A stretch of 64,000 nucleotides of DNA from Ruminococcus bicirculans (ex Wegman et al. 2014). Lineage in GTDB: Bacteria; Bacillota; Clostridia; Oscillospirales; Ruminococcaceae. Under the pieces are notes generated by a model. The model saw only the letters and a list, made by a program, of their open reading frames with translations. It made no database searches and was not told the DNA's origin. The position numbers were made by a program, and so were the translations under genes. Each line of letters begins with the position of its first letter. Within the stretch, counting starts at the first letter, position 1. The stretch spans positions 1,178,001 through 1,242,000 of the forward strand of contig NZ_HF545616.1 of NCBI RefSeq assembly GCF_000723465.1. Direction: 5' to 3'. This document shows positions 36,159-57,096 of the stretch, piece by piece.

Positions 36159-37157
36159 ATGAAAACTAATGAAAAGAAGAATACTTCTGCTAAGAAGAAA
36201 CTTATACCTGCAGTTGCAATGCTCACAACTTCCGCTGTAATGCTTTCTACTGCTACTTATGCTTGGTTTACGATGAGCAGAGAAGTTGAAGTAACAGGCA
36301 TTAAGCTTACTGCTACAACTCCACAGACAATTGAAATTTCACTTGGTAAAGCTACAACTGGCAACACGCTGACTGCTGGACAAGAGGCAACTGCACCTGG
36401 TGCTGATGAAACACTTTGGTCACACACTGCTGCTATGGGTTCTGTATATAAAGATTTTGGTAAGCTTATTCCTGCATCTTCTGTTAATGGTTTTGATATG
36501 TTCTATACTGTAAAAGCAACAGAAAATGGTAAGAAAGTTTCTGATGTTGACAATCCTTTCAACAAGGCAACTACTGCTGCTGGCTGGGAATTTCAGGATG
36601 ACGGTAAATCTTCTGAAAAAGGTGATGCTGTTACAGCTGTTGATAAGGAAGGCTCAGGATATTATCTTGACATTCCGGTTTGGTTCAGAACAACAAGCAC
36701 TAGTGCTGTAAACCTTGGTCTTGACGTTGAAGTTAAACAGGGTAGTGATAGTGATACAACTACAGAACTTTACAAGGCTGCTCGTGTTGCAATACTCCCT
36801 GACACTAAGGCAGCACAGAGTGTGTTCCTTGGTGCAGAGGGAAATGCTACTACAAATTATTACACAGACGGTAAGGCTGTTTCGACCGCGGCAGCAACTT
36901 TAACTGCTTCATATGGTGAAGTTTCTGTTGCAACAGAGGTTAAAGCTACTGACGGAAAGGTTACTAATGCTGCTAATGCAACACATGTTGCTACTGTAAC
37001 AAAATCAACGGGTACAGGTTATGGTGGCGCTGTTAAGTATTACATTCGTGTATGGCTTGAGGGAGAAGATGAGGCTTGTTGGAATGCTAATGCAGGTCAG
37101 GACTTCCAGATTAATCTTAAATTCTATGACCTTTCAAACACAGGCACAGGTGTTTAA
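36159..37157 (+). CDS. TasA/CalY-like surface fibre protein with SipW-type signal
   Basis: A secreted protein of 332 residues. The basic N-terminus, hydrophobic helix (about 17-34) and S-T-A-T-Y-A-W-F-T cleavage region fit SipW substrates such as TasA and camelysin. The mature part is Thr/Ala/Ser-rich and beta-strand rich, consistent with a jelly-roll fibre subunit. Near the C-terminus V-W-L-E-G-E-D-E-A-C recurs in the gene at 38088 (I-W-L-E-G-N-D-P-D-C). Many codons end in T, unlike the neighbouring housekeeping genes. It has its own promoter, structured leader and terminator. It is probably the major fibre subunit; that is inference. Confidence 0.78.
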   Translation: MKTNEKKNTSAKKKLIPAVAMLTTSAVMLSTATYAWFTMSREVEVTGIKLTATTPQTIEISLGKATTGNTLTAGQEATAPGADETLWSHTAAMGSVYKDFGKLIPASSVNGFDMFYTVKATENGKKVSDVDNPFNKATTAAGWEFQDDGKSSEKGDAVTAVDKEGSGYYLDIPVWFRTTSTSAVNLGLDVEVKQGSDSDTTTELYKAARVAILPDTKAAQSVFLGAEGNATTNYYTDGKAVSTAAATLTASYGEVSVATEVKATDGKVTNAANATHVATVTKSTGTGYGGAVKYYIRVWLEGEDEACWNANAGQDFQINLKFYDLSNTGTGV

Positions 37158-37177
37158 TCCATAACAATAAAACAAAA

Positions 37178-37206
37178 AAGACGCCGAAGAAATTCGGCGT
37201 TTTTTG
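37178..37206 (+). terminator. Terminator after the first TasA-like gene
   Basis: Stem gacgccgaa / ttcggcgtt with a gaaa loop is followed by a run of T and preceded by a run of A, so it could act in both directions. Confidence 0.9.
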
Positions 37207-37261
37207 GTAAATGGGCATAAAAAATAATTTTCCATATTTGGGGAAATCTCCCGATTTTTCT

Positions 37262-37289
37262 TTGTTTTTTGTCGAAAATATGCTATAAT
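37262..37289 (+). promoter_or_regulatory. Promoter of the surface-assembly operon, with Spo0A-box match
   Basis: TTGTTT (37262-37267), 16-bp spacer and TATAAT (37284-37289). Within the spacer, TTTGTCGAAAA (37268-37278) matches the full 11-bp Spo0A box. A Spo0A-type regulator bound there would sit on the -35 side of the promoter. Confidence 0.6.
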
Positions 37290-37322
37290 AATACATTGGA
37301 GCAGAAAGGAAGTGGCTTTGCT

Positions 37323-38069
37323 TTGGGCGAAAATTCTACAGTTGACGGCGTTCGTGCCGTGGAGCTTTTCTATAGACCTATAAAAAATACCGACAGCGGC
37401 AGGGTCACTTTTTTGCAGTCGCAAACAAGGCTCAATTCTCCTGTTATGGGAACGCTAATGCCTGCGGATTATCTCCCTGTGGCTCAGCTTTCCGACCGAT
37501 GTGTTAGCATTTTCAAGCTTGCTTTTGTTCAGCTTTTGCAGGCTTTGGGCAAGTTTCACGAAAGGGAAGTTGACGTTGATTGGGCAAGCGTGTTCATGCC
37601 TGCAAGATTTTTAAGGCAGACGGAAGCTCCGAGAATTGCGGCAGATTATTGCGATAAGTTTGGCGTGAAGTATGAGCGTGTCTGCTTTGAGTTGTCGCCT
37701 GATGTGCTTGATGAAGCTGACAGCACAGTGGCAGATAACGTGGCTCTTATGAGAAGACAGGGCTTTCATTTTCTGCTCACAGGCTTCGGCACTGAGGGCT
37801 TTAAAATGCTTAAGACCGCTGAGTTCAAGGTAGATAATATCATGCTTTACGGCTCAGTGGCTCAGGTTCTTGGTAAGAGCGACAGGTATGATACCTGCGT
37901 GAACTCTCTGCTGAATTTCGTTTTTGACCTTAATGCTGAGGTCATAGCTGACGGCATTACTGATGATAAGCAGGTGAAACAGCTCAGCGGTATGCAGTGC
38001 CTTTACTATTCGGGAGAAAATGCAGGAAAATATATTGCGGAAAGATACGTTCGCAATAGAAATGAGTAA
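37323..38069 (+). CDS. Degenerate EAL-domain protein
   Basis: A cytoplasmic protein of 248 residues with the layout of an EAL c-di-GMP phosphodiesterase: V-E-L-F-Y-R-P-I at the start, V-C-F-E-L-S-P in mid-domain (usual L-E-I-T-E-S) and F-L-L-T-G-F-G-T-E-G-F near residue 155 (usual D-D-F-G-T-G). The E-A-L signature itself is replaced by L-Q-S-Q-T-R-L and the metal-binding D-D pair is lost. It is therefore probably a ligand-binding or scaffold protein, not an active phosphodiesterase. The start is TTG 37323, with AAGGAAG 10 nt upstream. It is the first gene of the large surface operon. Confidence 0.68.
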   Translation: MGENSTVDGVRAVELFYRPIKNTDSGRVTFLQSQTRLNSPVMGTLMPADYLPVAQLSDRCVSIFKLAFVQLLQALGKFHEREVDVDWASVFMPARFLRQTEAPRIAADYCDKFGVKYERVCFELSPDVLDEADSTVADNVALMRRQGFHFLLTGFGTEGFKMLKTAEFKVDNIMLYGSVAQVLGKSDRYDTCVNSLLNFVFDLNAEVIADGITDDKQVKQLSGMQCLYYSGENAGKYIAERYVRNRNE

Positions 38070-38087
38070 TAAACGGGTGATACGGTT

Positions 38088-38822
38088 TTGGACGGTAAAA
38101 ATATAGATAAAAATACAAGAGTAGTCGATACCCTTGCACTTCGCAGGACCGCCAAGGAAGCTAAACGCTATGTGGTATTGATGAGATTGCTTAAAATACT
38201 TGCCATTATACTTATCGCTATCGTGGCGGCGGCTTATGCGGTGTCTTATTTTTACGACAAGTATGGTAGCTTTACAGTTAAGATAAGTAAGTATGATATG
38301 ATAAATCAGGGGCTTACTCTTTCGGAAACTCCTGACTATACCACGAGCAATTCAAGGCTCAATGCGGATATCCTCTATGATATGACAAATATCAGTGGCG
38401 AAGATCTCCCTGATAATATCGACAAGATAAACGGCAGCCATAATGGCGAGGGGTATATAGCTTATACTTTCTATCTCATAAATTCCGGTAAAGACACACT
38501 TAGCTATGACAGCGAAATGACTATCGAGAACGTCACGAACGGTGTTGATGAAGCTATCAGAGTGGAGCTTTTCGTGAATGGCGAGAAAACTGTTTATGGT
38601 AAAACAAAGTCTGACGGCAGTGGTAAGGAAAGCGATTGCGACAAGGAGTTCGCCTCCTCTACTGAGGTCATGAAGGACCGACGTGAAAAGCTTGGTCCTG
38701 GTGAGAAAGACAAGTATACAGTAGTCATATGGCTTGAGGGAAATGACCCTGATTGTGTTGACAAAATAATCGGTGGCACAATGAAGCTTGGTATGAATTT
38801 CAAGATCGTTGAAACAACTTAA
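38088..38822 (+). CDS. Membrane-anchored TasA-like accessory protein
   Basis: A 244-residue protein with a short cytoplasmic N-terminus, one hydrophobic helix (about residues 33-55, I-L-A-I-I-L-I-A-I-V-A-A-A-Y-A-V) and an extracellular domain. Near the C-terminus V-I-W-L-E-G-N-D-P-D-C is shared with the first TasA-like protein, so the two belong to one fold family. It lacks the A-W-F-T cleavage region of the other members, so it may remain in the membrane as an anchor or chaperone. The start is TTG 38088 with a weak GGGTGA site. Confidence 0.68.
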   Translation: MDGKNIDKNTRVVDTLALRRTAKEAKRYVVLMRLLKILAIILIAIVAAAYAVSYFYDKYGSFTVKISKYDMINQGLTLSETPDYTTSNSRLNADILYDMTNISGEDLPDNIDKINGSHNGEGYIAYTFYLINSGKDTLSYDSEMTIENVTNGVDEAIRVELFVNGEKTVYGKTKSDGSGKESDCDKEFASSTEVMKDRREKLGPGEKDKYTVVIWLEGNDPDCVDKIIGGTMKLGMNFKIVETT

Positions 38823-38866: not shown

Positions 38867-39526
38867 ATGAAAAAAGCTTTGAAGATCGTTTTTAATGTTA
38901 TCGCATGGGTGGTGCTTATCTTTGCACTGCTTATAACAATTCTCGTGTTCTCGTCTGATAAGAATAATGGTACGGCAAGTCTGCTGGGATATGTCCCACT
39001 CACAGTTGAATCTGACTCAATGAAGCCAACTTTCAAAAAAGGCGACCTTATTATCTCAAAGGAAATAGACGATATCAATTCTCTGAAAAAGGGCGACGTT
39101 ATCACTTTCTGGACTCTTATAAAGGGCCAAAAGGTGAAGAATACCCACCGTATCGCAGAGGTACTCAATGATAACGGCTCTGTAGGCTTTATCACACGAG
39201 GCGATGCTAATAACGTAGATGATACATACACTGTTTATGCAGGTGATATAATCGGTCAGTGGAAAGGTGCAAAAATAGGCGGTTTCGGCAAGGTAATGGA
39301 TTTTCTCAGAACAAAAACGGGATTTTTCATTTGCATACTTTTGCCCATAGCACTGTTTTTCCTCTTTGAGCTTTATAAGCTTATCGCAACCATAATCGAG
39401 ATAAAGCGTCCTGCTATCACAGAGAGCGATGAGGAAGAAATAAAAAGACGTGCAGTTGAGGAATACCTTGCACAGCAGAAGAAAAAGGAAGAGGAAAATG
39501 CACAGCAGGAGAAAAATGACAAATAA
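38867..39526 (+). CDS. sipW: SipW-type signal peptidase I (first copy)
   Basis: A signal peptidase of the archaeal/ER-like (S26B) type used for TasA-family substrates. It has an N-terminal membrane helix (about 8-28), the catalytic Ser51 in E-S-D-S-M-K-P and His94 in N-T-H-R-I instead of the usual bacterial Lys. The G-D-A-N box follows, then a second membrane helix (about 151-172) and a basic, Glu/Lys-rich cytoplasmic tail. AGGAGG lies unusually far upstream, with a hairpin between. A second SipW-type gene occurs 4.4 kb downstream. Confidence 0.9.
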   Translation: MKKALKIVFNVIAWVVLIFALLITILVFSSDKNNGTASLLGYVPLTVESDSMKPTFKKGDLIISKEIDDINSLKKGDVITFWTLIKGQKVKNTHRIAEVLNDNGSVGFITRGDANNVDDTYTVYAGDIIGQWKGAKIGGFGKVMDFLRTKTGFFICILLPIALFFLFELYKLIATIIEIKRPAITESDEEEIKRRAVEEYLAQQKKKEEENAQQEKNDK

Positions 39527-39547: not shown

Positions 39548-41116
39548 ATGAATGGATTTCTGAAATGGTTTTTTGTTTTCATGTCGTCAATGCTTGCAGG
39601 CTTTGGGCAGATCTTCAAAGGTCTGTGGAACGGCATAAAACAGATCTTCAATATAAAAAACTACATAAGGATATTCAAGACCTACTCGGCAGACTTTGGT
39701 GCGCTGGGCTGGATACTTTCTGTGCTTGCAATTATCGTTGTTGTGGCTATCTTTGTGCTTATTATTTTTATGATAGTGCTTGCTGTGAGAAAGTACATAA
39801 GATTCAGACACTCTATCGTCAGCAACGAGGATCTTATCGAAGAAATATCTGACCTGCAGCGTCAGGTGGTCAAAATGACCAAGGAAAAAGATGAGATCAT
39901 GGCAATGAAGGTGGCTCAGCTTGGGGTCTATGATAACACCGCTCTTGCAGAAGGTGAAACAAAGCTTGCAGAGGGCGAGCAGATGCCTGCACAGGGCGAA
40001 GTTCAAACCATTGTGGACGGCGTTGTTCAGACAGCAGATTGCCGTTTTTCAAAGCTTATCGAGGTGGACAATTTCTACAAGACATACGAGCCGCCTGCTT
40101 ACAATAATGACATCACCCTTAGCGGTATCTGCGAAGCATACAGAAACTTTGCCTGCTCAAGAATGCACCTTTATTATGACATAAAAACTATCCGACTTTT
40201 CATTGCAGGCATGGCTTCAACAAAGCTCATTATCCTGCAAGGTATCTCTGGTACAGGTAAAACATCACTGCCGTATTCATTCGGTAAGTTCTTGCAGAAT
40301 GATACCACTATTGCATCTGTTCAGCCGTCATGGCGTGACAGAACTGAGCTTTTTGGCTACTTCAACGAGTTCACGAAGAACTTTAATGAAACAGAAGTCC
40401 TCAAAAGAATTTATTCTTCTGAATACAATGACGATGTAAACTTCATACTCCTCGACGAGATGAACATTGCGAGAGTAGAATATTACTTTGCAGAAATGCT
40501 CTCAATTCTTGAAATGCCTGATCCTGCCGAGTGGGAGCTTGATCTTGTTCCTAACGTGTGGAGTACCGACCCTGTTCGCCTTGATAAGGGCAAGCTGCGT
40601 ATTCCGCAGAACATTTGGTATATCGGTACTGCCAACAACGACGATTCCACGTTTACTATCTCAGATAAGGTATACGACCGTGCACAGCCTATCAATCTTG
40701 ACGCAAAGGGAGTTGCCTTTGACGCACCTGACACGCCGCCTATGAATTTAAGCTTTGAACATCTTGATACACTTTTCAAGGAAGCTTTTCAAATGTATCC
40801 TGTTTCACAGGACAGTCTGAAAAAGATCCAGCAGCTTGACCTGTGGGTAATTGAAAAGCTGAGAGTGGCTTTCGGTAACCGTATACTTAAACAGATGAAC
40901 TTGTTTGTTCCTGTATATGTTGCCTGCGGTGGAGATGAACTTGACGGCATTGACTATGTGCTTGCCACAAAGATATTCAGAAAATTTGAGTCGCTTAACT
41001 TGGCAATGCTAAGAGAAGAGCTGAAAGAGCTTTGCACCTATATGCTGAAGCTTTTTGGCAGAAACACTATGAAAGAATCTATAGCATATCTTGAAAGATT
41101 GCAAAAACTGTACTAA
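39548..41116 (+). CDS. Membrane-anchored McrB-like AAA+ ATPase
   Basis: A 522-residue protein with hydrophobic N-terminal segments (about 4-25) and a strong transmembrane helix (about 54-80), then a coiled-coil stretch (about 95-125) and an AAA+ domain of the McrB type. Walker A G-I-S-G-T-G-K-T-S is at 232-240, Walker B F-I-L-L-D-E-M-N at 299-306 and the sensor-1 motif I-G-T-A-N-N-D-D at 359-366. McrB-like ATPases usually drive DNA restriction with an McrC or DUF2357 partner; the next gene is such a partner. Here the ATPase is fixed to the membrane inside a surface-protein operon, which suggests a motor for assembly or export. That role is inference. Confidence 0.82.
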   Translation: MNGFLKWFFVFMSSMLAGFGQIFKGLWNGIKQIFNIKNYIRIFKTYSADFGALGWILSVLAIIVVVAIFVLIIFMIVLAVRKYIRFRHSIVSNEDLIEEISDLQRQVVKMTKEKDEIMAMKVAQLGVYDNTALAEGETKLAEGEQMPAQGEVQTIVDGVVQTADCRFSKLIEVDNFYKTYEPPAYNNDITLSGICEAYRNFACSRMHLYYDIKTIRLFIAGMASTKLIILQGISGTGKTSLPYSFGKFLQNDTTIASVQPSWRDRTELFGYFNEFTKNFNETEVLKRIYSSEYNDDVNFILLDEMNIARVEYYFAEMLSILEMPDPAEWELDLVPNVWSTDPVRLDKGKLRIPQNIWYIGTANNDDSTFTISDKVYDRAQPINLDAKGVAFDAPDTPPMNLSFEHLDTLFKEAFQMYPVSQDSLKKIQQLDLWVIEKLRVAFGNRILKQMNLFVPVYVACGGDELDGIDYVLATKIFRKFESLNLAMLREELKELCTYMLKLFGRNTMKESIAYLERLQKLY

Positions 41117-41152: not shown

Positions 41153-43267
41153 ATGAGCGAATACAACGAACAGCGTGCAGCTTTTGACAAAGCTGTAAAG
41201 ACGCTTGACGGCAATAACAGCTTTGCGGCAGCCCGTGCCTTGCTTCTTTCGGGCGAAAAAACTGTATCTTTTAATCGTAAGATAATCGAGAAGAATATAG
41301 ATTCGTCCTGGCTCACAGAGATAGAAAAAGCTCTGCCACATCTTGATACGGTAATAAGAAATCCAAGAAACACCATTAAAGAAGTGGAAGAGATCGTGCC
41401 TATCGCTATGTCAAGGAAGATAACGGTAGAGTCCATAAAACATCTAGGTCAGCACACCGATCTTATTCAGGATATCGACAAAAAGACTGGAAAGATAACT
41501 CCGTCAAAGATACTCAACATTCATAAAGAGGAAACTCTTGATACATATGAAAATAGATTTGTAAATACCCTTATCGACAGGCTATACATATTTATAAATA
41601 TAAGATACAATAAGCTTGTCCAGACCGCAGAGGCGCAGGAGGCTTATTCTTTTAATTACGATACCGTGGCGGACAGCGGCGACGGGAGAAAGGTCAACAT
41701 TAGTTTTAAGATAGAAACCGTTGACTGTCTTGTCGGCGGCAGCAAGGATACTGACATTTGGGCAAGGCTTGAAAGGGTCAAAAAGGCTATCGAAGGCTAT
41801 AAAGGCTCAGTGCTTTGTACCACTCTTGGCAACGCTTTTATCAGACCGCCTGTTATGAGAACAAACGCTATCACTAAAAATGTGGACCTTATGGCGTGTC
41901 TTACCCTTTGGCAGTTTATCGAAAGCTACGATAAGGCAGGCTACGAGGTCAACGTTTCTGATACTGCACAAAGACCTGATGATTCTTATATCGAGGATAT
42001 ATATGGTCTGACCGCAATGAACTATATGCTTTTCCGCTCCTATACCCATGGGGCAGATAAGTCGGAGGAGCTTAAAACCATAAAGAGCAAGACCCTTGCA
42101 CCAAAGGTTGTCAGGCGTTTTGATAAGCAGACGTCTGATAAATATGATGTCATAGTTGGCGAGGGTGAACAAAGTAGTGCAGGTAAGACAGATATGGGTA
42201 TGTCTGCCGAAGAGGCAGGAAACCTTACGGCAGAGCTTGACCGTATAGTTGAGATAGAAAAGCAGTTTCTCAAAGACGAGGAAGACCGTAAGAGGGCTGA
42301 GGAGCTTGCGGCTGCAGAAGCTGAAAGAAAGCGTGCCGAGCAGGAGAAACTTGAGCGTCAGCGGCGTGAGGAAGAAGAGCGCATAAGGCTGGAGCATGAG
42401 GAAGCTGAACGCAGAAGATTGGAGCTTATCCAAAAACAGCAGGCGGAGCAGGCTGCAAGAGAAAAGGCGGAGCGTGAGGAACGTGAACGCCGTGAAAAAG
42501 AGGAAGAGATCAAGCATATCGCAAGACGCAAAAGGCAAATGGAAGAGCGTAAGCGCCGTGAAGAGGAGCAGCGTGTCCGTGAGGAAAGAGCTAGGATCCG
42601 AGAGGAGAAAAAGCTCGTCCGCAGCAGCCTTGGATCTGCTATGGATCAGCAGATCAGCACGAATGAAGAAGCCGTGTCTTCAAGCTTTGTGTCAGAGTAT
42701 GAGTCCCCTGAGATCGCTGCAAAAAAGGCGAAAGAAGCACAACAGCAGCGTGAGCAGGAACGCCGTGAGCGTGAACGTGCTGAGCGTCTTAAAGCTGAAC
42801 GTGAAAGCTTTGAAAATAAAAATATCAATGAGATATTTAAAGAATATTCCAAAAATCCATATTACATGGCAAAACGTGGCATAACATATGTTCTGGCTCA
42901 CGCATTTGGGATCATACCTGTTGTGACGGATAATCCAGACTATATCAGGATGTTCAAAGTCAAGAAGGAAAAAGAACTGGCTGAGGCAGAGAGAAAACGT
43001 GCAGAGCGTGAAATTGAGATCATCTATGAAAAATATGCTCCGTATCTGAAATATGATGTAAAGAGGCATATCAAAAACAGGCAGTTTAAAAAGAGAAAAC
43101 GTCTTGAGCGAAAGAACAGACCGCCAAGACCATATATTCCGCCACAGCGCACCGCTGAGGAGCAGAAAGCTATCGACGCTGAAATGAAACGACTCTATAA
43201 GGAGTATCATGTTTCAGCAGTTGGCAGAATGGCAAGGCATTTGAAAGAGAAATATAGGAAACAATAA
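41153..43267 (+). CDS. DUF2357-like protein with a long charged coiled coil
   Basis: A 704-residue cytoplasmic protein. The first 290 residues resemble DUF2357, the partner domain of McrB-like ATPases; T-Y-E-N-R-F-V-N-T-L-I-D-R-L near residue 130 is the clearest stretch. Residues about 365-500 are a highly charged Glu/Arg/Lys repeat expected to form a long helix or coiled coil. The C-terminal 180 residues are basic and helical. I see no PD-(D/E)XK nuclease motif, so this is probably not a restriction enzyme. The start is ATG 41153, with GGAGGG 6 nt upstream; a TTG 18 nt earlier is less likely. Confidence 0.68.
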   Translation: MSEYNEQRAAFDKAVKTLDGNNSFAAARALLLSGEKTVSFNRKIIEKNIDSSWLTEIEKALPHLDTVIRNPRNTIKEVEEIVPIAMSRKITVESIKHLGQHTDLIQDIDKKTGKITPSKILNIHKEETLDTYENRFVNTLIDRLYIFINIRYNKLVQTAEAQEAYSFNYDTVADSGDGRKVNISFKIETVDCLVGGSKDTDIWARLERVKKAIEGYKGSVLCTTLGNAFIRPPVMRTNAITKNVDLMACLTLWQFIESYDKAGYEVNVSDTAQRPDDSYIEDIYGLTAMNYMLFRSYTHGADKSEELKTIKSKTLAPKVVRRFDKQTSDKYDVIVGEGEQSSAGKTDMGMSAEEAGNLTAELDRIVEIEKQFLKDEEDRKRAEELAAAEAERKRAEQEKLERQRREEEERIRLEHEEAERRRLELIQKQQAEQAAREKAEREERERREKEEEIKHIARRKRQMEERKRREEEQRVREERARIREEKKLVRSSLGSAMDQQISTNEEAVSSSFVSEYESPEIAAKKAKEAQQQREQERRERERAERLKAERESFENKNINEIFKEYSKNPYYMAKRGITYVLAHAFGIIPVVTDNPDYIRMFKVKKEKELAEAERKRAEREIEIIYEKYAPYLKYDVKRHIKNRQFKKRKRLERKNRPPRPYIPPQRTAEEQKAIDAEMKRLYKEYHVSAVGRMARHLKEKYRKQ

Positions 43268-44414: not shown

Positions 44415-44642
44415 GTGAGCAGTAAAGGGCAGCTTAAAAGAGAAATAAAGAAATGCAGACTTACTATCGAGGAGATAGAGCGTAAGAGATCACGTTCACA
44501 ATCAGCACTCGTTCAGGCAATTCTTTTGCAGGAAGAGCCTAACGAAATGGACGTTGAGTGGTTCAACAAATACACAGGCGAGATAACCGCTTGCAGAAAC
44601 CACATGATAGAATTGCAGAAAGAGCTTGACTCGATGAAATAA
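44415..44642 (+). CDS. Small coiled-coil protein (75 aa)
   Basis: A charged, almost fully helical protein with no signal peptide or membrane helix, likely cytoplasmic. Two helices are separated by a P-N-E-M-D turn, giving a helical hairpin. The start is GTG 44415, with AAGGAGG 9 nt upstream. It could be a chaperone or regulator for the operon; family not recognised. Confidence 0.65.
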   Translation: MSSKGQLKREIKKCRLTIEEIERKRSRSQSALVQAILLQEEPNEMDVEWFNKYTGEITACRNHMIELQKELDSMK

Positions 44643-44656
44643 TGGAGGTCGCCAAA

Positions 44657-45607: not shown

Positions 45608-45642
45608 ATAAGAATATTAACTTTGCACGGAGGCAGTTGAAA

Positions 45643-48600: not shown

Positions 48601-51600
48601 AATAATTACAGAAGCTCACGAGATGCAACTTATTTTGAACTTACTGAACCTAATGGATATAAGATCTCACAAGATACTAAGATAAATATAAGCCCAAGCT
48701 ATTCGTATTTTGATGAGATAGCTCGTTGTAGTATTTATTATTCTTCTTCAGCTAGTTTTATGTCTAATCGTCAAGCCATAATTTCAATTCCTGCTGTTAC
48801 AGCGGACGGAGAGCGTTTGCTGTATATGGACGGAAAGAACTGCAATACCTATCAAAATCAAACAACAAATAATGGTGCTGTGTGGAAAAATAATTCTTGG
48901 GCAAGATATTATTATAACCTTGATGTATATAAAAACGGTAAAGCCACCACAGGCGGAGCTAAGGCTGTTGAGTGGAGCGCAAAGCTTTTTGCGGCAAATA
49001 ATATAAAAGCATATATTAATAGCACAAATATAGATTTTCCAACAGATGCAGAAATAGATTTGACAGGATATTCATTTTATCCAGTTGATACAAATGGTTG
49101 TAATATAAAATCAAATTCAACTATTACTTTTGAAAATAATGGCTTTAATCAGTCTGAAATGGTATCAAGCAGTAATAGTGACAATTATGCCCGTACAACT
49201 GACGGAATAGATGGAACAAATTTAACTAATGACCATAATCAACATTACATGATGCAATCTGGACTTTTCAGAAATGAAAATGGAACTGTTACCATAAGTG
49301 GTAAAATGACCTTTAAGGGAAATATCGGTAAGGTGAATGGTGGTTCAGGTGCATTGGTTTGCGGCTCGGTTGCTGACGACACCAATACTTCAAAAAAATC
49401 TGTCAAAATTACCGGCAGTATCGTTCTTGATGATCTGTATGTGAATGATACTTCTTTAAGTTTAAATGGTGAAAATTCTTATGCCCCTTTGCTTATAAAT
49501 AAGATAGGCAACATGACAGAGATCACTATACAGAATGTGTCACAGAAAAAACACAGTATGACTACTGCTAAATATGATAAAGGCGGTCAGGATTATACTG
49601 CAACAAGCCTTATAGGCGATGTAGGAAGCAAAAAGGGTCAAAATATATCTCTGACTTTCTCAAATATCAAGCTTGACGCAAGTGATGTAAATTCAATTTT
49701 CAAAAATGCTACTTTGCTTGAAAGCTTTCAGCATTCTGACGGAGCAGGCTCTTCTGCAATATACAACTATAAATGGGACGACGATTGGGGTACAGACTCA
49801 GCTGGCAATATTAAGCATAATGTAACCTACGGAAAAGAAGTGTCTGACACCATAAAGAATCGTGTAGATGATGTGAGCAGGCAGAATAAGTATCATGGCG
49901 ATTGGAGTAGGGATGACAGGTATACTTCTCCTGTCAAAAATAACGCAACAGAGGAATATAGCTTTACTGAATACAAGCCATATGTTGCTAAATCGTATGA
50001 TACCACCCAAAACTATGATGAGATAGACGTAAACCTTGAGCGACCATATCTGGACGAGGGTTGCGGAACATACTCTGATCCATATATCCTTGACGCTTCT
50101 ACACTTGCAGAGGTCGCACGAGTTATCAGTACAGCCGCACCTACAAATGGCTGGGAAGTAAACTATAATGCAAATGTTTCTGCCGATAAATCGACTGTTA
50201 ATGCTAATAGTGCTTTTTGCAAAGGCACTAATCATAAAACTTATACTTATGATGGAACAGGCAATTTCGTAAGCGGAAAGGAAACAGTTTCAAAAGATAA
50301 CATGATCAAATATCTTTGCGAGGCTTATTACAAGATAAATGATGATATAGTTCTTGGCAGTTCTTTTGCAGGTCTTGGCGGAACATCAAACAGTTACGTT
50401 TTCAGGGGCGTTATTGTTGGACAGAAGAAATCCGACGGAACATATCCAACTATCACCAATAATTCTGCAAGCCCTCTCATCAGGTTCAGCAGCGGAAGTG
50501 TTGTAAAAGATATCAATATAAAATATACCAAAGAAGTAACGCTTTCAAAAAACAATAATAATAAATTAAACTATAGTACCGGAAAGACGGAGTATTATGG
50601 CGGTGTTATGGGCGTTGTGTTCGGTGGAGATAATATCATTGATAATGTCAAGGTAACAAATCCTAATATAAAATTTGCGAATAACGATAACAGCAAACAA
50701 CATCTCATTACTGCAGGCGGATATGTTGGTGCCATAGTTTACGGCGGTGTTATTTTCAGAAATATGGACATCGTTGCCAAAGATAGTGCGCTTACAACCA
50801 ACAATACTGAGGCAGTGGGTGAAGACGTATATACCAATCTTTTTATCAATCCATATATAGGCAGAGTTGTAAACGGCTTTGCTATCGAAGAGGGAACAAC
50901 GTTTGGTAAGTCAACTAACCTTAACAATGGCAGGAAAAATTATCTCATCACGCAGTTTAAGAGTGAGCTAAGTGATGGTGAGAAATTAAATGTTATTGCC
51001 GGCACGACCAATACCATTGAAGTACCTAATGCACAAGCGTTGTTTATGCTGTCTATCATATCACAGTCCGGTATGGGATATACAGACCGTAATAAAAATA
51101 CTTGCGGCTATGGTCATTATACTTTTACTCGAAATGCAGACTATTCAAAAGTTGGCACAGCTACATTGACTTCTGATGATAAAGATTACAAAACTGCGCT
51201 CTCAGATTATCAAAGACTTGAAAAGGCTACAAGCAGGGAATATGAAAAGAAAAATTCTGTAATGCTAAAAAAATATACAAAGCCAAGTGAAAAAGGTCTT
51301 TATGAAGCAAAGTGGGCACACGAATTAAATAAGAACTTTACTGTTAAACTCACAGGAAATGGAACCTATGACCTCATCAACACAGGTTTTCGTGGTATAA
51401 ATCAGTTGTTTGATGCAAAGGATAGTAACCTTGGCGACATTAAATGTGATTATACTTTATCTTTGACAACTATCCAGGGAAATGATCAGACTATAAAGCT
51501 CGATACAGATATAAAAGCCTATGCTGTGAAAATAACGGATAACAAGAGCGGTAACACTATTGAAATCCAAGATATGGATAACTATAAATATCGTACCGCA

Positions 51601-54051
51601 TTTGCCTCCGTAAAAGGAGTTGGGTTGATAAACTGTTCAACGTATGCTTTAATTGTAAATGACCTTAAGCTTTCCGGCAAGATCAGCGTTAAGACATATA
51701 ACAACGATGGACAATCGTATGTTAATGAAGACCTTTCTACAGGTGGTATCGTTGGCGGAGTACAGAGTTCTTGCACGTTTAGCGGAATAACATTGACTGA
51801 TCTTGAAATATATGGTGCATATACTGTGGGAGGACTTATAGGAAAGTCAACAAATAATATTAATATAAGTAACGTTAAGTCTGAAAACAGTGGCGTTTAT
51901 GTGTATGGCGGATTTGAAACAGGCGGTCTTGTGGGAAATTCTCAGAAAGGCAACGAATTCGCTGTTAAGGATTCTAAGATAAAAATTAATAAAGTTGAAT
52001 TTGCTAATCTTGATAAAGGCACAAAAACTTGGTTTGGCGTAGGTGGAATCGCAGGCACTGCAAATATCAAAACGACAATAAGCAATGTTCAGCTTACAGC
52101 CTATAATGAAGACAGCTTTATCGGTTCAAAAAAAGACAATAAACCCCTTGCAACCCAGACAATGAACGAGGGCGGTCTTATAGGACTGTCTAACGGAGCC
52201 TGCACAATAACAAACACAAGCGTCAGCGTCGATGTTTATGGTAGTAATGCCGGTGGATTCGTTGGAATAAACAAAAACCAGTTGTCTATCAATGACTGTT
52301 ACTATGGAGAAACATCTGAAACATCAGCTTGCGGTGTTTATGGCTATACAAGTTCAGGCGGAATGGTCGGCACACAGAATGCGGCTGTGACCATATCAAA
52401 GTCTGCTGTAAAAAATGCAACGATAGGTATACCGGTTGCTAAAAATGGTGATGCAGGTATCGGAGGTTATGTTGGTATAAAAGCTAATGGTGATCTGAAG
52501 ATATCTGATTGTGAAGTCAACAATGTTACTCTGTCAGCAGAAGATAAGTCCAATGGTGCAGGTGCAGGCGGCGTGATCGGTCATAATGACCGTGGAAACA
52601 CATATGCTTATGATATTCTCATAAATAAATTAGGCTATGTAAGAGGCAACAATAGCGTATCTGTTTCTAACTTGATAGGTTGGAACTATGATAAAAATCT
52701 ATCATCTAAATTTATTGGAGTATCGGTAAATAACACGGATTGTTTACCTGATATACAGTATAATGCTTCACAGATACCTGCCAGCTTCACCGCAGTTCAC
52801 TCCGACTACAACGGTACTCAGGACAATACCAAAAATATCGGCGAGGGAAGCGGCACGCACGTTGATAACTATTCACCTTATGTCAATATAAACCCAAGCG
52901 TTACTGTAGGCGGTAAGACTTTCGCAGGTGATTTTGTTGGTGGAAATATGCAGACTATCATTAGTGACGCTGCTTCTTATACGAATGGCACAAAGAAAAA
53001 ATCCTATGGCATAAACAGTACCATAAAGACATATGCAGAGGATCTGGCTAATTCAAAGCTTACAACATTTCGTCAGGCCTCTGAGCTTGATGTTCAGGAG
53101 CTGAACGATCTTCCAGTTTTGCTTATAGATGATAACTCATCGTTGAATATCACACAAATGCTCGCAAAGTATATCTCAGTTCTGACAAATTGTGATGTTT
53201 GCGACAGCAGTTCAAATAAGCTGAAAACAACAGATCTTATGAATGTAAGCACAGCGACTTATGTGTATGATAACGGCGTTTTGAAAAAATCAGACAAAAG
53301 CACTCTTACGTTTAACAGCAAGACAGGATATTTCAAGGTCACAGACGGTCAGTATGACAATGACGGCACAAACAGATTTACTGTCATTACTCTTGATTAT
53401 ATCGACCCAACGGGAAGTGACAAAACTGCTCTTAGACTTCATATTCCTGTTTTTGTAAGAAAGGTGCTTGATTTCAGCTTCCAATCTTACGTTATCTCAG
53501 GCACAGACTATAACCATTCTCACTATACGGATAAAACAAAGCTTGCTTTTGAGAGCTTTGATGCACCTGTTACTACTTATTTTAAGTATTCCTATTACAA
53601 ATCCGCTAACGAATGGGAAAAAATGCTCAATAACGGTGACAGTCTGCTTTGGAGTTTTGACAAAAAGCTTTATCTTATTGGTGATAGCGCCACTGACAGT
53701 GGTGTGCTTACCGATGATACAAAGCTAACTCTTGTTGATGCAAATAACAATGACAAGACTTATCATTCTACCGCAAGTGATGCTAAGTTTAATAAAACAA
53801 CTGGTGAGCTTGACTTGACAAATATAAGTGGCTTTAAACCGGTTACAATGAATGATGTACTGTTAAGATATGCGTCGGTAACAGCTATAGAAGCATCTGA
53901 CGGAACTCTTGTTGAAGCTGATGAAGCTACAGCTACTGTAAAAACGAGCGACGGCAAGTATTATAGACCTGCTGGTGAGAATGAAACAGGCACTTATAAG
54001 ATAACTGTTTCAGCGAATAGTGATACACAAAAAATGATAATGACGAAATGA
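45643..54051 (+). CDS. Giant GLUG-repeat surface protein (2,802 aa)
   Basis: A very large secreted protein. The N-terminus has a Sec-type signal (N-V-I-S-L-V-T-A-A-V-L-L-V-T-S-M-P-L-A, about residues 24-43). Residues about 220-2300 hold many GLUG-like repeats, e.g. A-G-G-L-V-G near residue 300, F-G-G-L-I-G, G-G-I-V-G and A-G-G-V-I-G near 2275, which predict a long right-handed beta helix as in bacterial adhesins. The C-terminal 500 residues change to bacterial Ig-like or jelly-roll strands. No LPXTG motif or membrane anchor is seen. The start is GTG 45643, 9 nt after GGAGG. The frame ends at TGA 54049, where the next ORF overlaps by 4 nt and seems to continue the protein. Confidence 0.82.
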   Translation: MKANRNQKINRICHKLYSKYRKNVISLVTAAVLLVTSMPLADISGVVSKMVSTVTNAITAMAEDTYTDITNDIKNGVFTIQNADDFKKLLNADPSVYQKITVLFSNNQSQFKASDFTGIEKGLGNEEYPFMGTVKANEGSAINLPINFALFEYLSDSANLDTIIFARPEEKNSALLAENVIHGDVASANKWKIKADPVDDSGATNYKSFTSVIGNMKNGANVDLDITLSNDVKVEVSGGDNAGLACGTMDENASLAVSLSSSSLDISGKSNAGVFIGKMSTGATLNVDKCDVLTGVNVSANNAGGLVGSAENAEINVGEGVTLTMTGSVTGSVTVGGLFGSYTYSKANEKTFDISKFSGMKMALACSSGDTADSAAVGSVFGLLTNSADSAKISITGTANDTITSNFNGTVRAGFYGGIVGRYSANALSSELALSDIIVKVTGSCNALDFGGLIGKIGDNSKAYVSVKNTTIRINNPTSSQNNYGGLVGYADQAFIDVGGKVTVTANNVSANQSVGGIVGKFNKNGVVRLGGETNLSGFYPKDPNKNRCQIVGNRGIALIYSLSGWSFTRTSSKVIDDMDWGGVLRLNNSDLLESADGVLSFDGSGHTVTINGFPNNNITISNRADFARAALIMQHDSNVFVKYSGASRADMLAANISLSADVDISDTGLTGFMRDNGEDTFTGTLTGNSHKLTMTVGTENDKIVFHTHNGLFAKTSGAKISDLTIVSNFNIVGDNVSGGDACYIGSVSAYNSGALTIDKVTADVTASPSGAYTNFVGGLVGYVADATSEVSFTNSAVTANLTYNNSTTKVDCTCLGGVIGMVGAVTSKPTTGIKFDNVTVGGKITDKHTGSNSRVGGLIAEVGAKDNSASVVPNKISITNVNINALTINSSGKSNSGGFLGHNWYRVEIDLNSLNVNDSRLTVNNGTELGGLVLSTTGYWSIKEVSFDGVTVKATKCINFGMLASTLFGRDYDSYGFDYFKGENVNNYRSSRDATYFELTEPNGYKISQDTKINISPSYSYFDEIARCSIYYSSSASFMSNRQAIISIPAVTADGERLLYMDGKNCNTYQNQTTNNGAVWKNNSWARYYYNLDVYKNGKATTGGAKAVEWSAKLFAANNIKAYINSTNIDFPTDAEIDLTGYSFYPVDTNGCNIKSNSTITFENNGFNQSEMVSSSNSDNYARTTDGIDGTNLTNDHNQHYMMQSGLFRNENGTVTISGKMTFKGNIGKVNGGSGALVCGSVADDTNTSKKSVKITGSIVLDDLYVNDTSLSLNGENSYAPLLINKIGNMTEITIQNVSQKKHSMTTAKYDKGGQDYTATSLIGDVGSKKGQNISLTFSNIKLDASDVNSIFKNATLLESFQHSDGAGSSAIYNYKWDDDWGTDSAGNIKHNVTYGKEVSDTIKNRVDDVSRQNKYHGDWSRDDRYTSPVKNNATEEYSFTEYKPYVAKSYDTTQNYDEIDVNLERPYLDEGCGTYSDPYILDASTLAEVARVISTAAPTNGWEVNYNANVSADKSTVNANSAFCKGTNHKTYTYDGTGNFVSGKETVSKDNMIKYLCEAYYKINDDIVLGSSFAGLGGTSNSYVFRGVIVGQKKSDGTYPTITNNSASPLIRFSSGSVVKDINIKYTKEVTLSKNNNNKLNYSTGKTEYYGGVMGVVFGGDNIIDNVKVTNPNIKFANNDNSKQHLITAGGYVGAIVYGGVIFRNMDIVAKDSALTTNNTEAVGEDVYTNLFINPYIGRVVNGFAIEEGTTFGKSTNLNNGRKNYLITQFKSELSDGEKLNVIAGTTNTIEVPNAQALFMLSIISQSGMGYTDRNKNTCGYGHYTFTRNADYSKVGTATLTSDDKDYKTALSDYQRLEKATSREYEKKNSVMLKKYTKPSEKGLYEAKWAHELNKNFTVKLTGNGTYDLINTGFRGINQLFDAKDSNLGDIKCDYTLSLTTIQGNDQTIKLDTDIKAYAVKITDNKSGNTIEIQDMDNYKYRTAFASVKGVGLINCSTYALIVNDLKLSGKISVKTYNNDGQSYVNEDLSTGGIVGGVQSSCTFSGITLTDLEIYGAYTVGGLIGKSTNNINISNVKSENSGVYVYGGFETGGLVGNSQKGNEFAVKDSKIKINKVEFANLDKGTKTWFGVGGIAGTANIKTTISNVQLTAYNEDSFIGSKKDNKPLATQTMNEGGLIGLSNGACTITNTSVSVDVYGSNAGGFVGINKNQLSINDCYYGETSETSACGVYGYTSSGGMVGTQNAAVTISKSAVKNATIGIPVAKNGDAGIGGYVGIKANGDLKISDCEVNNVTLSAEDKSNGAGAGGVIGHNDRGNTYAYDILINKLGYVRGNNSVSVSNLIGWNYDKNLSSKFIGVSVNNTDCLPDIQYNASQIPASFTAVHSDYNGTQDNTKNIGEGSGTHVDNYSPYVNINPSVTVGGKTFAGDFVGGNMQTIISDAASYTNGTKKKSYGINSTIKTYAEDLANSKLTTFRQASELDVQELNDLPVLLIDDNSSLNITQMLAKYISVLTNCDVCDSSSNKLKTTDLMNVSTATYVYDNGVLKKSDKSTLTFNSKTGYFKVTDGQYDNDGTNRFTVITLDYIDPTGSDKTALRLHIPVFVRKVLDFSFQSYVISGTDYNHSHYTDKTKLAFESFDAPVTTYFKYSYYKSANEWEKMLNNGDSLLWSFDKKLYLIGDSATDSGVLTDDTKLTLVDANNNDKTYHSTASDAKFNKTTGELDLTNISGFKPVTMNDVLLRYASVTAIEASDGTLVEADEATATVKTSDGKYYRPAGENETGTYKITVSANSDTQKMIMTK
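54029..54034 (+). other. A6 slippery run before the frame break
   Basis: Six consecutive A lie in the codons CAA-AAA-ATG. A -1 slip here would bypass TGA 54049 and fuse the giant ORF to the next frame (S-D-T-Q-K-N-D-N-D-E-M-I-I-S-E). It could be programmed, a mutation, or a sequencing error. Confidence 0.5.
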
Positions 54052-55367
54052 TAATAAGCGAGAACTATTATCTCACTATCAATATTCCGGAAACGGGAAG
54101 CTCGAAAAAAGTCATCAAAAACTTTGTGAATTATTATAGCGGTAATAAGCCAAGAAAGCTCAATGGCAATATTCCTACAAACCTTGTCCAAGTGACAAAT
54201 AATGACACTGGTGCATATGTTATTGCAAACTTTTTTACACAGCTAGTAAGTGTGACGGCTCATGACCCAGAGGAGATAACAGCGTCAAATAACTTTATCC
54301 ATGCCACAATGACGTCAAAGATAAGCATTGATCCGAGCCTTAGAGATACATTTAATGGCTATAAGAGTGACGATTTCAATATGTATCAGGCTTTTAAATT
54401 CTCTATGAAGAGCTTTGATGAAAACGATGCGGGAGCTAATGCAAAGATCATTGCAGGAACTTCGGTGAATGTTGATTACAGCATTTTAAACAGTTCAGAC
54501 ACAGAGTTATCAAACGCAAAAATAAGCAAGACTGAGACACTTTCAGAAGCTAAAGACAGCTATATGCTGATGTATCCCGATTCGGTTTACGATTATATCA
54601 ATAGTGACACAAATGGTTCTATAACTGTCAAGGCTGATATCAGCTTAACTTATGGTACTGCAGGGATCATAGATCAGTTTCCTGAACGTAAGGACGGGGA
54701 TACAAAAACCGGTATAGGCGTAAATGCGTCGTCATATGTTGCATATAGCCAGAACAATATTGAGAACAGCTCTATCTCTGCAAGTGGAGATATGCCTGCC
54801 AGACGCTACTATAGAAAGGCAATGACGGTGGCACAGCTAAACTATAACGTTGCAGAGTCAACGGTTCTTGAGTCGAAGGATTCACCATTTTCGCAGCTTG
54901 GTATCAATGCCAAAGATATGACTACAGAAGAAATGGCAATAACAGCAAATGCTATCTATGATCTGTCTGCTTTGAGTCGATCAACAAAGGACAGTGGCAA
55001 AAAAATACAGTATACAATGAGGTTGTATGTTAAGGACAATAGTGGTGATTATAAGCAGACGAACGATATTAGCAAATATCTCAGTAGCTTTACTTTGGAA
55101 AACGCCACATCAAGCAGTGGTCTGAATGGCAAGGAGTGCGTTTTTACCACTGACTATAATGGCGAAGAACAAAACACAGCCGTTACGAAATTTACAGTAA
55201 AAACAGGCAAGGCTTTTGAGGAGCAGGGACTTACCTATGCAAACTACAGAGTTGAGCTTACCGCAGTATTGCTTAATGACAACAACTCAGTTGTTAATGG
55301 AACTACCTCAAGCGACTATGTTGTTTACACAAACGCAAAAATAGAAACAGGCTTTATAAATTCATAA
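54048..55367 (+). CDS. C-terminal continuation of the giant surface protein (frame-shifted)
   Basis: A 439-residue ORF that starts with an ATGA overlap on the stop of the giant gene. It has no ribosome-binding site and no signal peptide, and its first residues (E-N-Y-Y-L-T-I-N-I-P-E-T-G) look like the middle of a beta-strand domain rather than a start. The rest is similar in composition to the end of the giant gene. These points favour one protein of about 3,240 residues broken by a -1 shift. The alternative is translational coupling, giving a separate subunit that would lack a secretion signal. Confidence 0.65.
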   Translation: MIISENYYLTINIPETGSSKKVIKNFVNYYSGNKPRKLNGNIPTNLVQVTNNDTGAYVIANFFTQLVSVTAHDPEEITASNNFIHATMTSKISIDPSLRDTFNGYKSDDFNMYQAFKFSMKSFDENDAGANAKIIAGTSVNVDYSILNSSDTELSNAKISKTETLSEAKDSYMLMYPDSVYDYINSDTNGSITVKADISLTYGTAGIIDQFPERKDGDTKTGIGVNASSYVAYSQNNIENSSISASGDMPARRYYRKAMTVAQLNYNVAESTVLESKDSPFSQLGINAKDMTTEEMAITANAIYDLSALSRSTKDSGKKIQYTMRLYVKDNSGDYKQTNDISKYLSSFTLENATSSSGLNGKECVFTTDYNGEEQNTAVTKFTVKTGKAFEEQGLTYANYRVELTAVLLNDNNSVVNGTTSSDYVVYTNAKIETGFINS

Positions 55368-55393
55368 TAAGCAGGCATTTTCAGGAGAAAATT

Positions 55394-56089
55394 ATGACAA
55401 AAAGCATTTTTGGAAAATTCAGAAAATTAGAAAAAAAGAAGAAGCTCCAGCTAGTCATAGCAGTATCCATCTCGGTGGTACTGCTTGTGGCACTGCCTGT
55501 TTATGCGTGGTTTACTCACAAACGTTCTATTGCTCTTACAACAAAAATAAATGCCCCTACTCAGCTTTATATCACCGCAGGAAACAAAGAATCTGTGGCA
55601 AATCTTGAAATGGCAGATATAGACGTTGAGAACGGCAGTTATAAAGACTTTGTTTTCGGCATAGGCGGGGCAGACGTGCAACAATATCAAATACAGCTTG
55701 CACATACAACGAATATCCCTTTTGAGTATGAGATATACCGTGCGAAAAGCGTCAGTGAAGCTGAAAAATCTGAAGCTGTCGTTTATGTTTCAGATGAAGA
55801 GAATAAAACGTTTTATTACAAAATAGACGGCAATAAGATCTCGGGACATTATCTCAATCAGCAAGGCTCGGAGATACTTGCTAACAGCACACTTCACAAA
55901 AAGTCCTATGACAGCTACGGCAATGTTCAGAAAAATTCCGAAGCACTTTATTGGCAATCGGATACACTGACGGTAATTGACAATAAAGATCCGTTTTGCG
56001 ATTATTTTATAATCAGAGTAAAATGGAATGATAAAGTCCAAAACAATAAAGAAACTGATATGGTCTACCTGACAGTTCAGAGAAAGTAA
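55394..56089 (+). CDS. SipW-type secreted protein with Y-A-W-F-T signal
   Basis: A 231-residue secreted protein: basic N-terminus (K-L-E-K-K-K-K-L-Q), one hydrophobic helix (about 19-36) and the cleavage region V-Y-A-W-F-T-H-K-R. The mature part is beta-rich, with Y-Y-K-I-D-G-N-K and I-R-V-K-W-N-D near the end. It follows the giant protein by 26 nt. CAGGAG lies 8-10 nt before the ATG. It is probably a minor fibre subunit or an anchor for the giant adhesin. Confidence 0.7.
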   Translation: MTKSIFGKFRKLEKKKKLQLVIAVSISVVLLVALPVYAWFTHKRSIALTTKINAPTQLYITAGNKESVANLEMADIDVENGSYKDFVFGIGGADVQQYQIQLAHTTNIPFEYEIYRAKSVSEAEKSEAVVYVSDEENKTFYYKIDGNKISGHYLNQQGSEILANSTLHKKSYDSYGNVQKNSEALYWQSDTLTVIDNKDPFCDYFIIRVKWNDKVQNNKETDMVYLTVQRK

Positions 56090-56121
56090 TAAATCACAAA
56101 ATAGAGAGGAGGGTGGCTGTT

Positions 56122-57096
56122 ATGAAAGACAAATTTATAAAAAAGCTTAAAAGATCGTGGCTTGCAATATGGATAGCTTTTGCGGCAGCCGCACTCAGTA
56201 CTATTGGCGTCCTGGCAGCTTATACCAGCGTTTCAAGTGTAAAGCGAGTTGTGTCCACACAAAAGGGAGCTGGCATGCTGTTTTCATCTAATTATCTTAC
56301 AACAGATGAAAATGATCTTCCAAGGACGATAACTTTTAGCAGTATGGAAAACTCGCCTTGTGTGACAGTCAATGTGTGCAACTATCCGCAAACATTGATA
56401 AAGCATAATGACAAGGATATCACATACACTTTGACAGTCGAGCTTGTGGACAGCAACGGAAATGCCGTTACCGGAGAAAAAACTGCAAAATACTCAGTTG
56501 AATATAACGGTGAAAAAAAGACTTTTGGAAGCAATTCAAAAATAGAGTTTTCACTTCTGAAACTTATGGCTGACGATTTCAACAAGCATGAATTTGTGCT
56601 GACTTTTGATAAGTCACAGCTCACAAATTCTGACATATACATGAGAGTGACAGCCACTCCTACAAATCAGGCTGAGTTGAAACCGCTCTCCGCAAAGCTT
56701 GGCGTTATCTATATAAATAATAACACATCAGCAACATGGACAGGCACATTCATCGACAATGCTACCTCGCCTAAAGATCTTGACGGCTTCAACTACCGCC
56801 TGTCAGGCAGTGGCGAGGGTACTGTCACCCTGACTTGGAATACGAACTATGTTGATATCAGCCCATGGTTTAAGAATACTTATGATCTGACTATTTCAAA
56901 GGACAGTTCTGGCATAGCCACTGCAACTTTGAAAGTGAATTCTGCCGAGAAAAATCAGTATGACATTCAGTTTTATCGAACGAACGGCATTAACAGTGCA
57001 GAGCAGTGGTCTGACGGTAATCATACCGATATTACGGTGACTGGTACGGGATTTGTTTCAATGAGTTTCACTCAAAGCACAGCGACAGAAAATTAG
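56122..57096 (+). CDS. Secreted protein with SipW-like N-terminus, last gene of the surface operon
   Basis: A 324-residue protein with a basic N-terminus, hydrophobic helix (about 15-33) and L-A-A-Y-T-S-V-S-S after it, a looser match to the SipW cleavage region. The mature part reads as two or three beta-sandwich domains, with a Gly/Ser-rich link near residue 230 and C-terminal V-T-G-T-G-F-V-S-M-S-F. The start is ATG 56122, with GAGGAGGG 9 nt upstream; the in-frame GTG nine bases earlier abuts that site. The bidirectional terminator after it closes the operon. Confidence 0.68.
   Translation: MKDKFIKKLKRSWLAIWIAFAAAALSTIGVLAAYTSVSSVKRVVSTQKGAGMLFSSNYLTTDENDLPRTITFSSMENSPCVTVNVCNYPQTLIKHNDKDITYTLTVELVDSNGNAVTGEKTAKYSVEYNGEKKTFGSNSKIEFSLLKLMADDFNKHEFVLTFDKSQLTNSDIYMRVTATPTNQAELKPLSAKLGVIYINNNTSATWTGTFIDNATSPKDLDGFNYRLSGSGEGTVTLTWNTNYVDISPWFKNTYDLTISKDSSGIATATLKVNSAEKNQYDIQFYRTNGINSAEQWSDGNHTDITVTGTGFVSMSFTQSTATEN

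Follow-up and report, generated by a model that had tools for sequence, protein, structure and literature searches.

A conserved gene set joins SipW-type signal peptidases to an McrBC-like membrane AAA+ module in Ruminococcus bicirculans

Introduction

SipW/TasA operons are common in Bacillota, and signal peptidases are regarded as energy-independent housekeeping enzymes. Why, then, would such peptidases be encoded beside an ATPase that resembles the motor of a restriction system? This question is raised by a locus of Ruminococcus bicirculans in a 64,000-nucleotide stretch of contig NZ_HF545616.1 (positions 1,178,001 to 1,242,000 of the forward strand; hereafter the window, in whose positions all coordinates are given). 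According to the open reading frame (ORF) listing of the window, every gene of the locus (36159-57138) is on the plus strand. The genes encode five secreted or membrane-anchored proteins with an AWF(T) or looser motif (Tas1 to Tas5), one stand-alone EAL-domain protein, two SipW-type peptidases (SipW1 and SipW2), a membrane-anchored McrB-like AAA+ protein, a DUF2357 protein, two small helical proteins (hel1 and hel2), and a giant repeat protein (Table 1). An earlier note, made from the letters of this DNA, had listed the two peptidases, the EAL, AAA+, and DUF2357 proteins, and the two helical proteins, all of which were found, and had proposed an assembly machine for a large surface fibre. As a gene association this proposal is well supported, with SipW beside the AAA+/DUF2357 pair throughout the clade, whereas the fibre itself is predicted. 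We consider it reasonably probable that the locus serves surface-fibre biogenesis and is of the CoCoPALM type, a name given to McrBC-type systems linked to signal peptidases (eLife 2024, in one paragraph with the rest deferred; PMC11090510). From the observed linkage we infer that an McrBC-derived motor tethered to SipW drives the release of fibre subunits, probably under control of cyclic di-GMP (c-di-GMP).

Conservation of the gene neighbourhood

With the AAA+ protein as bait, a scan of GTDB contigs yielded at least 558 relatives, of which the best 80 (the closest) were kept with their flanks. Genes were counted on the same strand and at those loci whose contig extends far enough. A SipW gene lies within 1.2 kb upstream of AAA+ in 76/76 loci (four of the 80 uncounted for short flank), and a DUF2357 gene within 1.5 kb downstream in 74/74 (six uncounted), the DUF2357 profile containing a coiled coil that may assist matches. 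A second SipW follows DUF2357, within 5.5 kb downstream of AAA+ or inside the DUF2357 ORF, in all 63 loci counted (17 uncounted). Upstream of AAA+, the EAL gene was found in 61/66 loci (reach 6.5 kb) and Tas2 in 62/66 (reach 3.5 kb; 14 uncounted in each case); hel2 is present in 56/58 (22 uncounted). The loci without an upstream EAL gene are L134, L146, L148, L149, and L150, and the first two of these have a long EAL protein downstream. In a separate sample drawn from the order and the class, SipW occurs within 1.5 kb in 33/33 loci with a full-length membrane AAA+ protein, in two of them (L191, L192) downstream only. This grouping left out L178, L195, and L201 (contig edges), L048 (no AAA label), matches without a fetched locus, and L193, a partial best match whose SipW is visible in a larger stretch. 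Among soluble McrB-like relatives, which served as negative control, SipW was found within 1.5 kb in 0/16, some flanks being cut by contig ends.

The earlier note had asked whether most genomes carry the AAA+/DUF2357 pair without SipW. Within the clade of the window they do not: SipW was found beside the pair in every adequately flanked locus. An ordinary TasA/SipW operon with unrelated neighbours gathered by chance, for which the SipW/TasA operon of Bacillus subtilis would be the precedent (PMC9674648), is refuted for this clade by the counts for both SipW genes and DUF2357, by the gene fusions described below, and by the empty control; its probability is practically nil. The locus is a genuine gene set, and chance assembly is excluded.

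Within the genus, 25/29 genomes, including that of the window, encode the AAA+ protein. Tas2 and a close SipW1 reach the same count (25/29 each) and a close EAL gene 24/29, the 25th (G007, L104) being cut by a contig end. Four genomes (G011, G012, G014, and G027) lack AAA+, Tas2, close SipW1, and close EAL alike; the core genes are present or missing jointly across the genus. Beyond it, AAA+ occurs in 26/297 genomes of the family (19 of them with E <1e-100), 31/295 of the order, and 40/391 of the class. As delimited by these sequence comparisons, the conserved core was shown to consist of the genes for the putatively inactive EAL protein, Tas2, SipW1, the membrane AAA+ protein, the DUF2357 protein, SipW2, hel1, and hel2. 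Among the carriers of the core are named strains of Ruminococcus albus, R. flavefaciens, Eubacterium ruminantium, E. uniforme, and E. xylanophilum, so the system may be relevant to the attachment of gut and rumen bacteria to plant fibre or to each other. Two divergent loci (L221, L222) have three SipW-type genes each and several proteins with one transmembrane (TM) helix around the AAA+/DUF2357 pair.

SipW peptidases and their fusion to DUF2357

As in the TasA/SipW matrix system, both peptidases are of the ER type with intact catalytic residues: SipW1 and SipW2 score 95 and 89 bits against TIGR02228 (cut-off 51.85), and 117 and 101 bits against the Bacillus SipW model NF046067, under its curated cut-off of 190. 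In alignments of sequences of at least 170 residues, the Ser-His-Asp triad is kept in 81/83 upstream SipW rows, the exceptions being L125 (cut by the contig start) and L148, and in 69/69 downstream sequences. Judged from these alignments, a role of SipW2 as a dead scaffold is ruled out because the triad is intact in both peptidases. A degenerate second SipW had been considered after a crude regular expression flagged 24/142 SipW rows for a missing motif; column-wise alignment showed the triad to be intact.

In the window, DUF2357 and SipW2 are separate genes (end at 43267, start at 43301). In 24 of the 63 loci with enough flank, however, DUF2357 and SipW2 share one continuous reading frame, which encodes a protein of 973-1053 residues. 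The fused state requires four changes on the AAA tree (69 rows, 24 fused), three of them forced by starred branches; this is a quick tree with no bootstrap. The strongest new finding of this study is that DUF2357 and SipW are fused repeatedly, in combination with a neighbourhood that stays constant.

A search for SipW in the window's own genome turned up, beyond the pair in the locus, only a gene at C1:517.7 kb (L232 3154-4200), whose product of 348 residues lacks the serine motif by eye. SipW-like frames of 350-400 residues occur in 27/29 genus genomes, and three of the four genomes without the fibre locus are among them.

The AAA+ protein and its DUF2357 partner

The single predicted membrane helix of the AAA+ protein is followed by a charged stretch, and its Walker motifs are intact. 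Its PDB-sequence relatives at E ≤0.1 are three McrB sequences only (best E 0.003), and no Pfam AAA model reaches its cut-off. Walker A and the sensor motif are conserved in each of the 96 AAA ORFs of at least 500 residues (some contigs counted twice), and Walker B is conserved in 95 of them. The stretch GTANNDDST of the window protein corresponds to the pattern GT.N[NSTP]D[DE], which all 96 contain; the NxD signature of McrB-like NTPases thus appears to be present, and NNDD could also read NxxD. The partner protein contains a DUF2357 domain (Pfam, E 1.5e-10), and a helix at 352-489 in its structure model (moderate confidence) together with a highly charged repeat in its sequence indicates a coiled coil. 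A PDB-sequence search with this protein gave three matches, all within the coiled-coil part, which were not used. A PD-(D/E)XK nuclease domain was detected neither by Pfam (DUF2357 only) nor by PADLOC, nor in a fold search based on a poor model.

Does this module act in defence? An McrBC-derived membrane module could sense phage or foreign nucleic acid, with the SipW and TasA-like proteins as effectors or barrier. In line with this, both McrBC and CoCoNuTs act in restriction (PMC11090510), the AAA+ protein matches PDC-M26A, a candidate-defence model of PADLOC (E 5.5e-39), and partial matches to the AAA domain were found on 264 plasmids and in two phage records. However, Pfam and PADLOC found no nuclease domain, the large share of genus genomes with AAA+ carries it jointly with peptidase and substrate-like genes, and none of 72,556 plasmid and 50,697 phage records matches at least 80% of the protein length. 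A defence function is thus quite improbable. Viral contigs contributed a single weak relative.

A sister group without SipW

In ten further loci (group B), the membrane AAA+ protein is related over the AAA domain only, and SipW is missing from the surrounding 1.5 kb. Nine of these loci match the DUF2357 profile, two of them weakly (17-22 bits). In larger stretches (L211-L220, nine of the ten plus one more module) SipW is likewise absent, the sole match (16 bits) falling on an AAA ORF, and several of these modules carry a second membrane AAA+ gene. In the wider family, the motor is therefore not tied to SipW. A same-strand neighbour with a transglutaminase core was found in six of seven modules tested (L211, L212, L213, L214, L216, and L217, but not L215), of which L211 and L212 belong to one genus and are not independent. 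These neighbours have 900-1,400 residues and a predicted membrane segment, and some show AgI/II C2 matches under the Pfam cut-off. A literature search found no paper that pairs DUF2357 with transglutaminase.

Because of this transglutaminase-linked group, the data support a role of membrane McrBC-like motors at the cell surface in general. They also fit a different function of the AAA+/DUF2357 pair, namely general quality control of the envelope or of secretion, such as membrane-protein extraction or another surface step, with fibres as incidental cargo; the large transglutaminase-like proteins next to modules without SipW speak for it. In the clade of the window, however, SipW is found in all adequately flanked loci and is fused to DUF2357 in more than a third of those counted, and we regard this alternative as unlikely.

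Plasmids carry a larger AAA+ protein (~800 residues) followed by a second protein (L233 4774-9302, L234 4621-9189), which is annotated as DUF2357 in Deinococcus but has no name in Nostoc; signal peptidase annotation is absent from the stretches shown.

EAL proteins and a possible link to c-di-GMP

The stand-alone EAL protein matches PF00563 (E 4e-24). Among the 62 EAL proteins of up to 350 residues at the 80 loci (matches above 50 bits), the catalytic Glu of the EAL motif is missing in all and the full catalytic set occurs in none, which rules out an active phosphodiesterase. In a second lineage (L134, L143, L145, L146, and L147), an EAL protein of 746-787 residues with intact catalytic residues is encoded downstream; that of L145, the one tested, is a GGDEF-EAL protein. 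A third lineage has an HD domain fused to a degenerate EAL domain (L054, L228), and degenerate residues were also seen in L051, L053, and L055. A gene of predicted c-di-GMP-related type is thus associated with the system in each of the three lineages, with inactive EAL, with EAL or GGDEF-EAL, and with HD-EAL. Control of the machine by c-di-GMP through the inactive EAL protein is probable from these sequence features.

Candidate substrates

The distinction made in the earlier note between three A-W-F-T proteins and two looser members could be reproduced: YAWFT or AWFT follows a hydrophobic segment in Tas1, Tas3, and Tas4, and looser forms occur in Tas2 and Tas5. In the whole 2.97-Mb genome, [YF]AWFT has two matches, Tas1 and Tas4, both in the locus, and the reversed control has none. 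A search for relatives of Tas1 matched 62 ORFs, its own included. The structure model of Tas2 (predicted local distance difference test (pLDDT) 75, predicted template modelling score (pTM) 0.64) has a long helix at its N-terminus, after which come beta strands. The second-ranked Foldseek match in the PDB is an archaeal bundling pilus (7ueg; E 9.4e-4, probability 0.99, TM-scores 0.29/0.37), described as a TasA-like system (PMC9674648). This likeness of a modelled fold is suggestive of a TasA-like nature, short of proof. A PDB-sequence search with Tas2 gave one irrelevant match, which was not used, and the Tas2 profile did not match 7ueg.

Comparison with known systems

The earlier note knew of no TasA/SipW locus with an McrB/DUF2357 module; this is superseded by PMC11090510, which already names CoCoPALM. 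The passages of that paper concerned with these systems describe an NxD McrB-like NTPase with an N-terminal membrane and coiled-coil segment, and a DUF2357 partner with coiled coils that adjoins a signal peptidase family protein. As predicted from sequence, the present locus shares three of these features: the NxD NTPase, the signal peptidase neighbour, and the coiled coil of the McrC homolog. As to the FtsB-like membrane and coiled-coil feature, the parts observed in AAA+ were the helix at 59-77 and the charged stretch after it. Because the three testable features are present, we do not call the locus a new kind of system; it is probably a conserved surface-biogenesis system, which CoCoPALM anticipates in name. 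The main text of PMC11090510, however, contains neither SipW nor TasA, and the DUF2357-SipW fusion and the inactive EAL protein are features of the loci studied here and not of the passages compared, though its supplement may overlap. The SipW/TasA-type identity, the fusion, the link to the inactive EAL protein, the distribution, and the transglutaminase-linked sister group go beyond the account in those passages, again with possible overlap in the supplement. In a literature search, CoCoPALM as a term for this subject occurred only in PMC11090510 and its preprint, and among the papers listed none pairs McrB with SipW.

Like tapA-sipW-tasA of B. subtilis, the locus combines SipW with neighbouring substrates that are anchored in the membrane and for which fibre formation is predicted (PMC9674648). 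In contrast to that operon, for which the parts of PMC9674648 consulted mention no AAA+, DUF2357, or EAL protein, it has two SipW, several divergent substrates, a giant protein, and no TasA-family sequence match. With McrBC of Escherichia coli, a type IV restriction system, it has in common an McrB-like AAA+ protein with a DUF2357 partner, but here the AAA+ protein is membrane-anchored and a PD-(D/E)XK nuclease was not detected.

Proposed mechanism

In the mechanism that we propose, TasA-like subunits would remain membrane-bound through their N-terminal helix until cleavage at AWF(T) by SipW1 or SipW2, and the freed Tas subunits would polymerise in the manner of TasA. The McrB-like ring would be fixed to the inner side of the membrane, and the DUF2357 protein would activate it in the way known from McrBC, where the DUF2357 domain of McrC binds and activates the McrB ring (PMC11090510). 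The coiled coil of the DUF2357 protein may reach SipW2 and tie the ring to it, and the ring might draw energy from nucleoside triphosphates (NTP) for positioning, opening, or driving the complex of peptidase and substrate and so govern cleavage or release of subunits. The switch of the machine is probably the inactive EAL protein, as a sensor of c-di-GMP. The membrane-anchored and strongly conserved Tas2 may be a membrane base or chaperone, comparable to TapA, and the giant protein a tip or adhesin.

Several observations weigh against this interpretation. Pfam and NCBIfam gave no TasA or camelysin family match for Tas1 to Tas4, nor Pfam, the only scan made, for Tas5. The resemblance of Tas2 to 7ueg suffers from low TM-scores and a moderate pLDDT, and the first-ranked Foldseek match of Tas2 is a glucosidase (probability 0.82). 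The structure model of the DUF2357 protein is poor and its fold search was without result. Binding of c-di-GMP by the inactive EAL protein, and contact of motor and peptidase in the unfused version of the window, are predicted only. The membrane AAA+ proteins of group B dispense with SipW. Of the four genus genomes that lack the core, two are 99% complete (G011, G012), and the other two are incomplete (G014 87%, G027 70%). Finally, homologs of Tas3, Tas4, Tas5, and the giant protein were found in only 13, 12, 11, and 14 of the 80 loci, many of which are cut by contig ends.

If the mechanism holds, the timing of secretion would be an active, switchable step driven by a peptidase-linked motor, and a restriction machine would have been reused for building the cell surface. 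A fuller version, in which SipW is coupled to an McrBC-derived ring that is wired into SipW2 (physically so in species with the fusion), controlled by c-di-GMP via the inactive EAL protein, and meters subunit release by NTP use, all within a wider family of motors that includes the transglutaminase branch, is put forward tentatively and is somewhat doubtful as a whole.

The giant protein and variable cargo

Homologs of the full set of Tas3, Tas4, Tas5, and the giant protein were found at 8/80 loci, and elsewhere they appear singly or in part. Based on these sequence matches, they are regarded, with Tas1, as putative variable cargo of a conserved core, in which Tas1 and Tas3 to Tas5 are SipW-type substrates. 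The earlier note had described a protein of over 2,800 residues; the ORF exists, but represents only the first part of a split gene. Stretches matching both parts form one continuous frame in eight ORFs of relatives (seven distinct contigs, L061 being the same as L133), and because relatives carry both parts in one frame, the gene is read as split near 54048 (54030-54060) in this genome. Mutation, recoding, or an error in sequencing could each be the cause. The label GLUG given to the protein was not sustained, as no Pfam GLUG model reaches E 1 and GGLVG-type repeats were seen by eye only.

Organization and transcription of the locus

Promoters and terminators in the locus are pattern matches only. 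The tight packing noted before is borne out by the coordinates, with gaps of at most 44 nucleotides or overlapping genes in the main unit. Of the single promoter and terminator proposed for the whole locus, the hairpin at the end of the main unit stands; the main unit starts at the extended -10 element, and 36159 appears to be a separate unit. Tas1 probably forms its own transcription unit outside the main one, because it has a promoter-like site (TTGACA-17-CATAAT at 36016, sigma-70 pattern scan) and is followed by a hairpin with a T-run. For the EAL protein, a start at 37323 is more likely than at 37269, because the latter lies upstream of the -10 element.

Table 1. Features of the locus in window coordinates.
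Feature	Position	Strand	Characteristics	Basis
Tas1	36159..37157	+	TasA-like secreted protein, YAWFT signal	ORF, pattern, relatives
Terminator-like hairpin after Tas1	37181..37205	+	palindrome then T6 on plus strand	hairpin scan, which listed minus strand
Extended -10 promoter-like element	37281..37289	+	TGCTATAAT; main-unit start	read from letters; missing from sigma-70 scan list
EAL protein	37323..38069 (ORF from 37269)	+	stand-alone; catalytic residues lost	PF00563, residue alignment
Tas2	38088..38822	+	membrane-anchored, beta-rich; locus core	model, neighbourhood, genus scan
SipW1	38867..39526	+	signal peptidase; Ser51, His94, Asp113	family models, alignment
AAA+ protein	39548..41116	+	membrane-anchored, McrB-like; TM 59-77; GISGTGKTS, LLDEMN, NNDD	motifs, TM prediction, PDB-sequence search
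DUF2357 protein	41153..43267	+	McrC-N-like, long coiled coil; nuclease not detected	Pfam, PADLOC, model
SipW2	43301..43972	+	signal peptidase; relatives fused to DUF2357 in 24/63	family models, alignment
hel1	43944..44396	+	helical protein with one TM helix	ORF list, TM prediction
hel2	44415..44642	+	75 residues, helical, highly conserved	alignment of relatives
Tas3	44642..45607	+	AWFT-type secreted protein	ORF, relatives
Giant protein, first part	45637..54051	+	repeat-rich, secreted; 2,804 residues	ORF, relatives
Giant protein, second part	54048..55367	+	439 residues; separated by frame change	ORF, relatives
Tas4	55394..56089	+	YAWFT secreted protein	ORF, pattern, relatives
Tas5	56113..57096	+	looser secreted member	ORF, relatives, TM prediction
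Terminator-like hairpin	57112..57138	+	main-unit end	hairpin scan

Rfam at gathering scores gave no match in 33000-58700, and a tRNA search found none in the whole window. The small protein hel2 reaches none of the curated family cut-offs; it shows 77-84% identity among the relatives compared, a conservation above that of most neighbours. Upstream of the locus lie ordinary neighbours, namely a YajC gene (33182) and, downstream of it, the gene for a SCIFF peptide maturase (34389-35762; TIGR03974, 704 bits).

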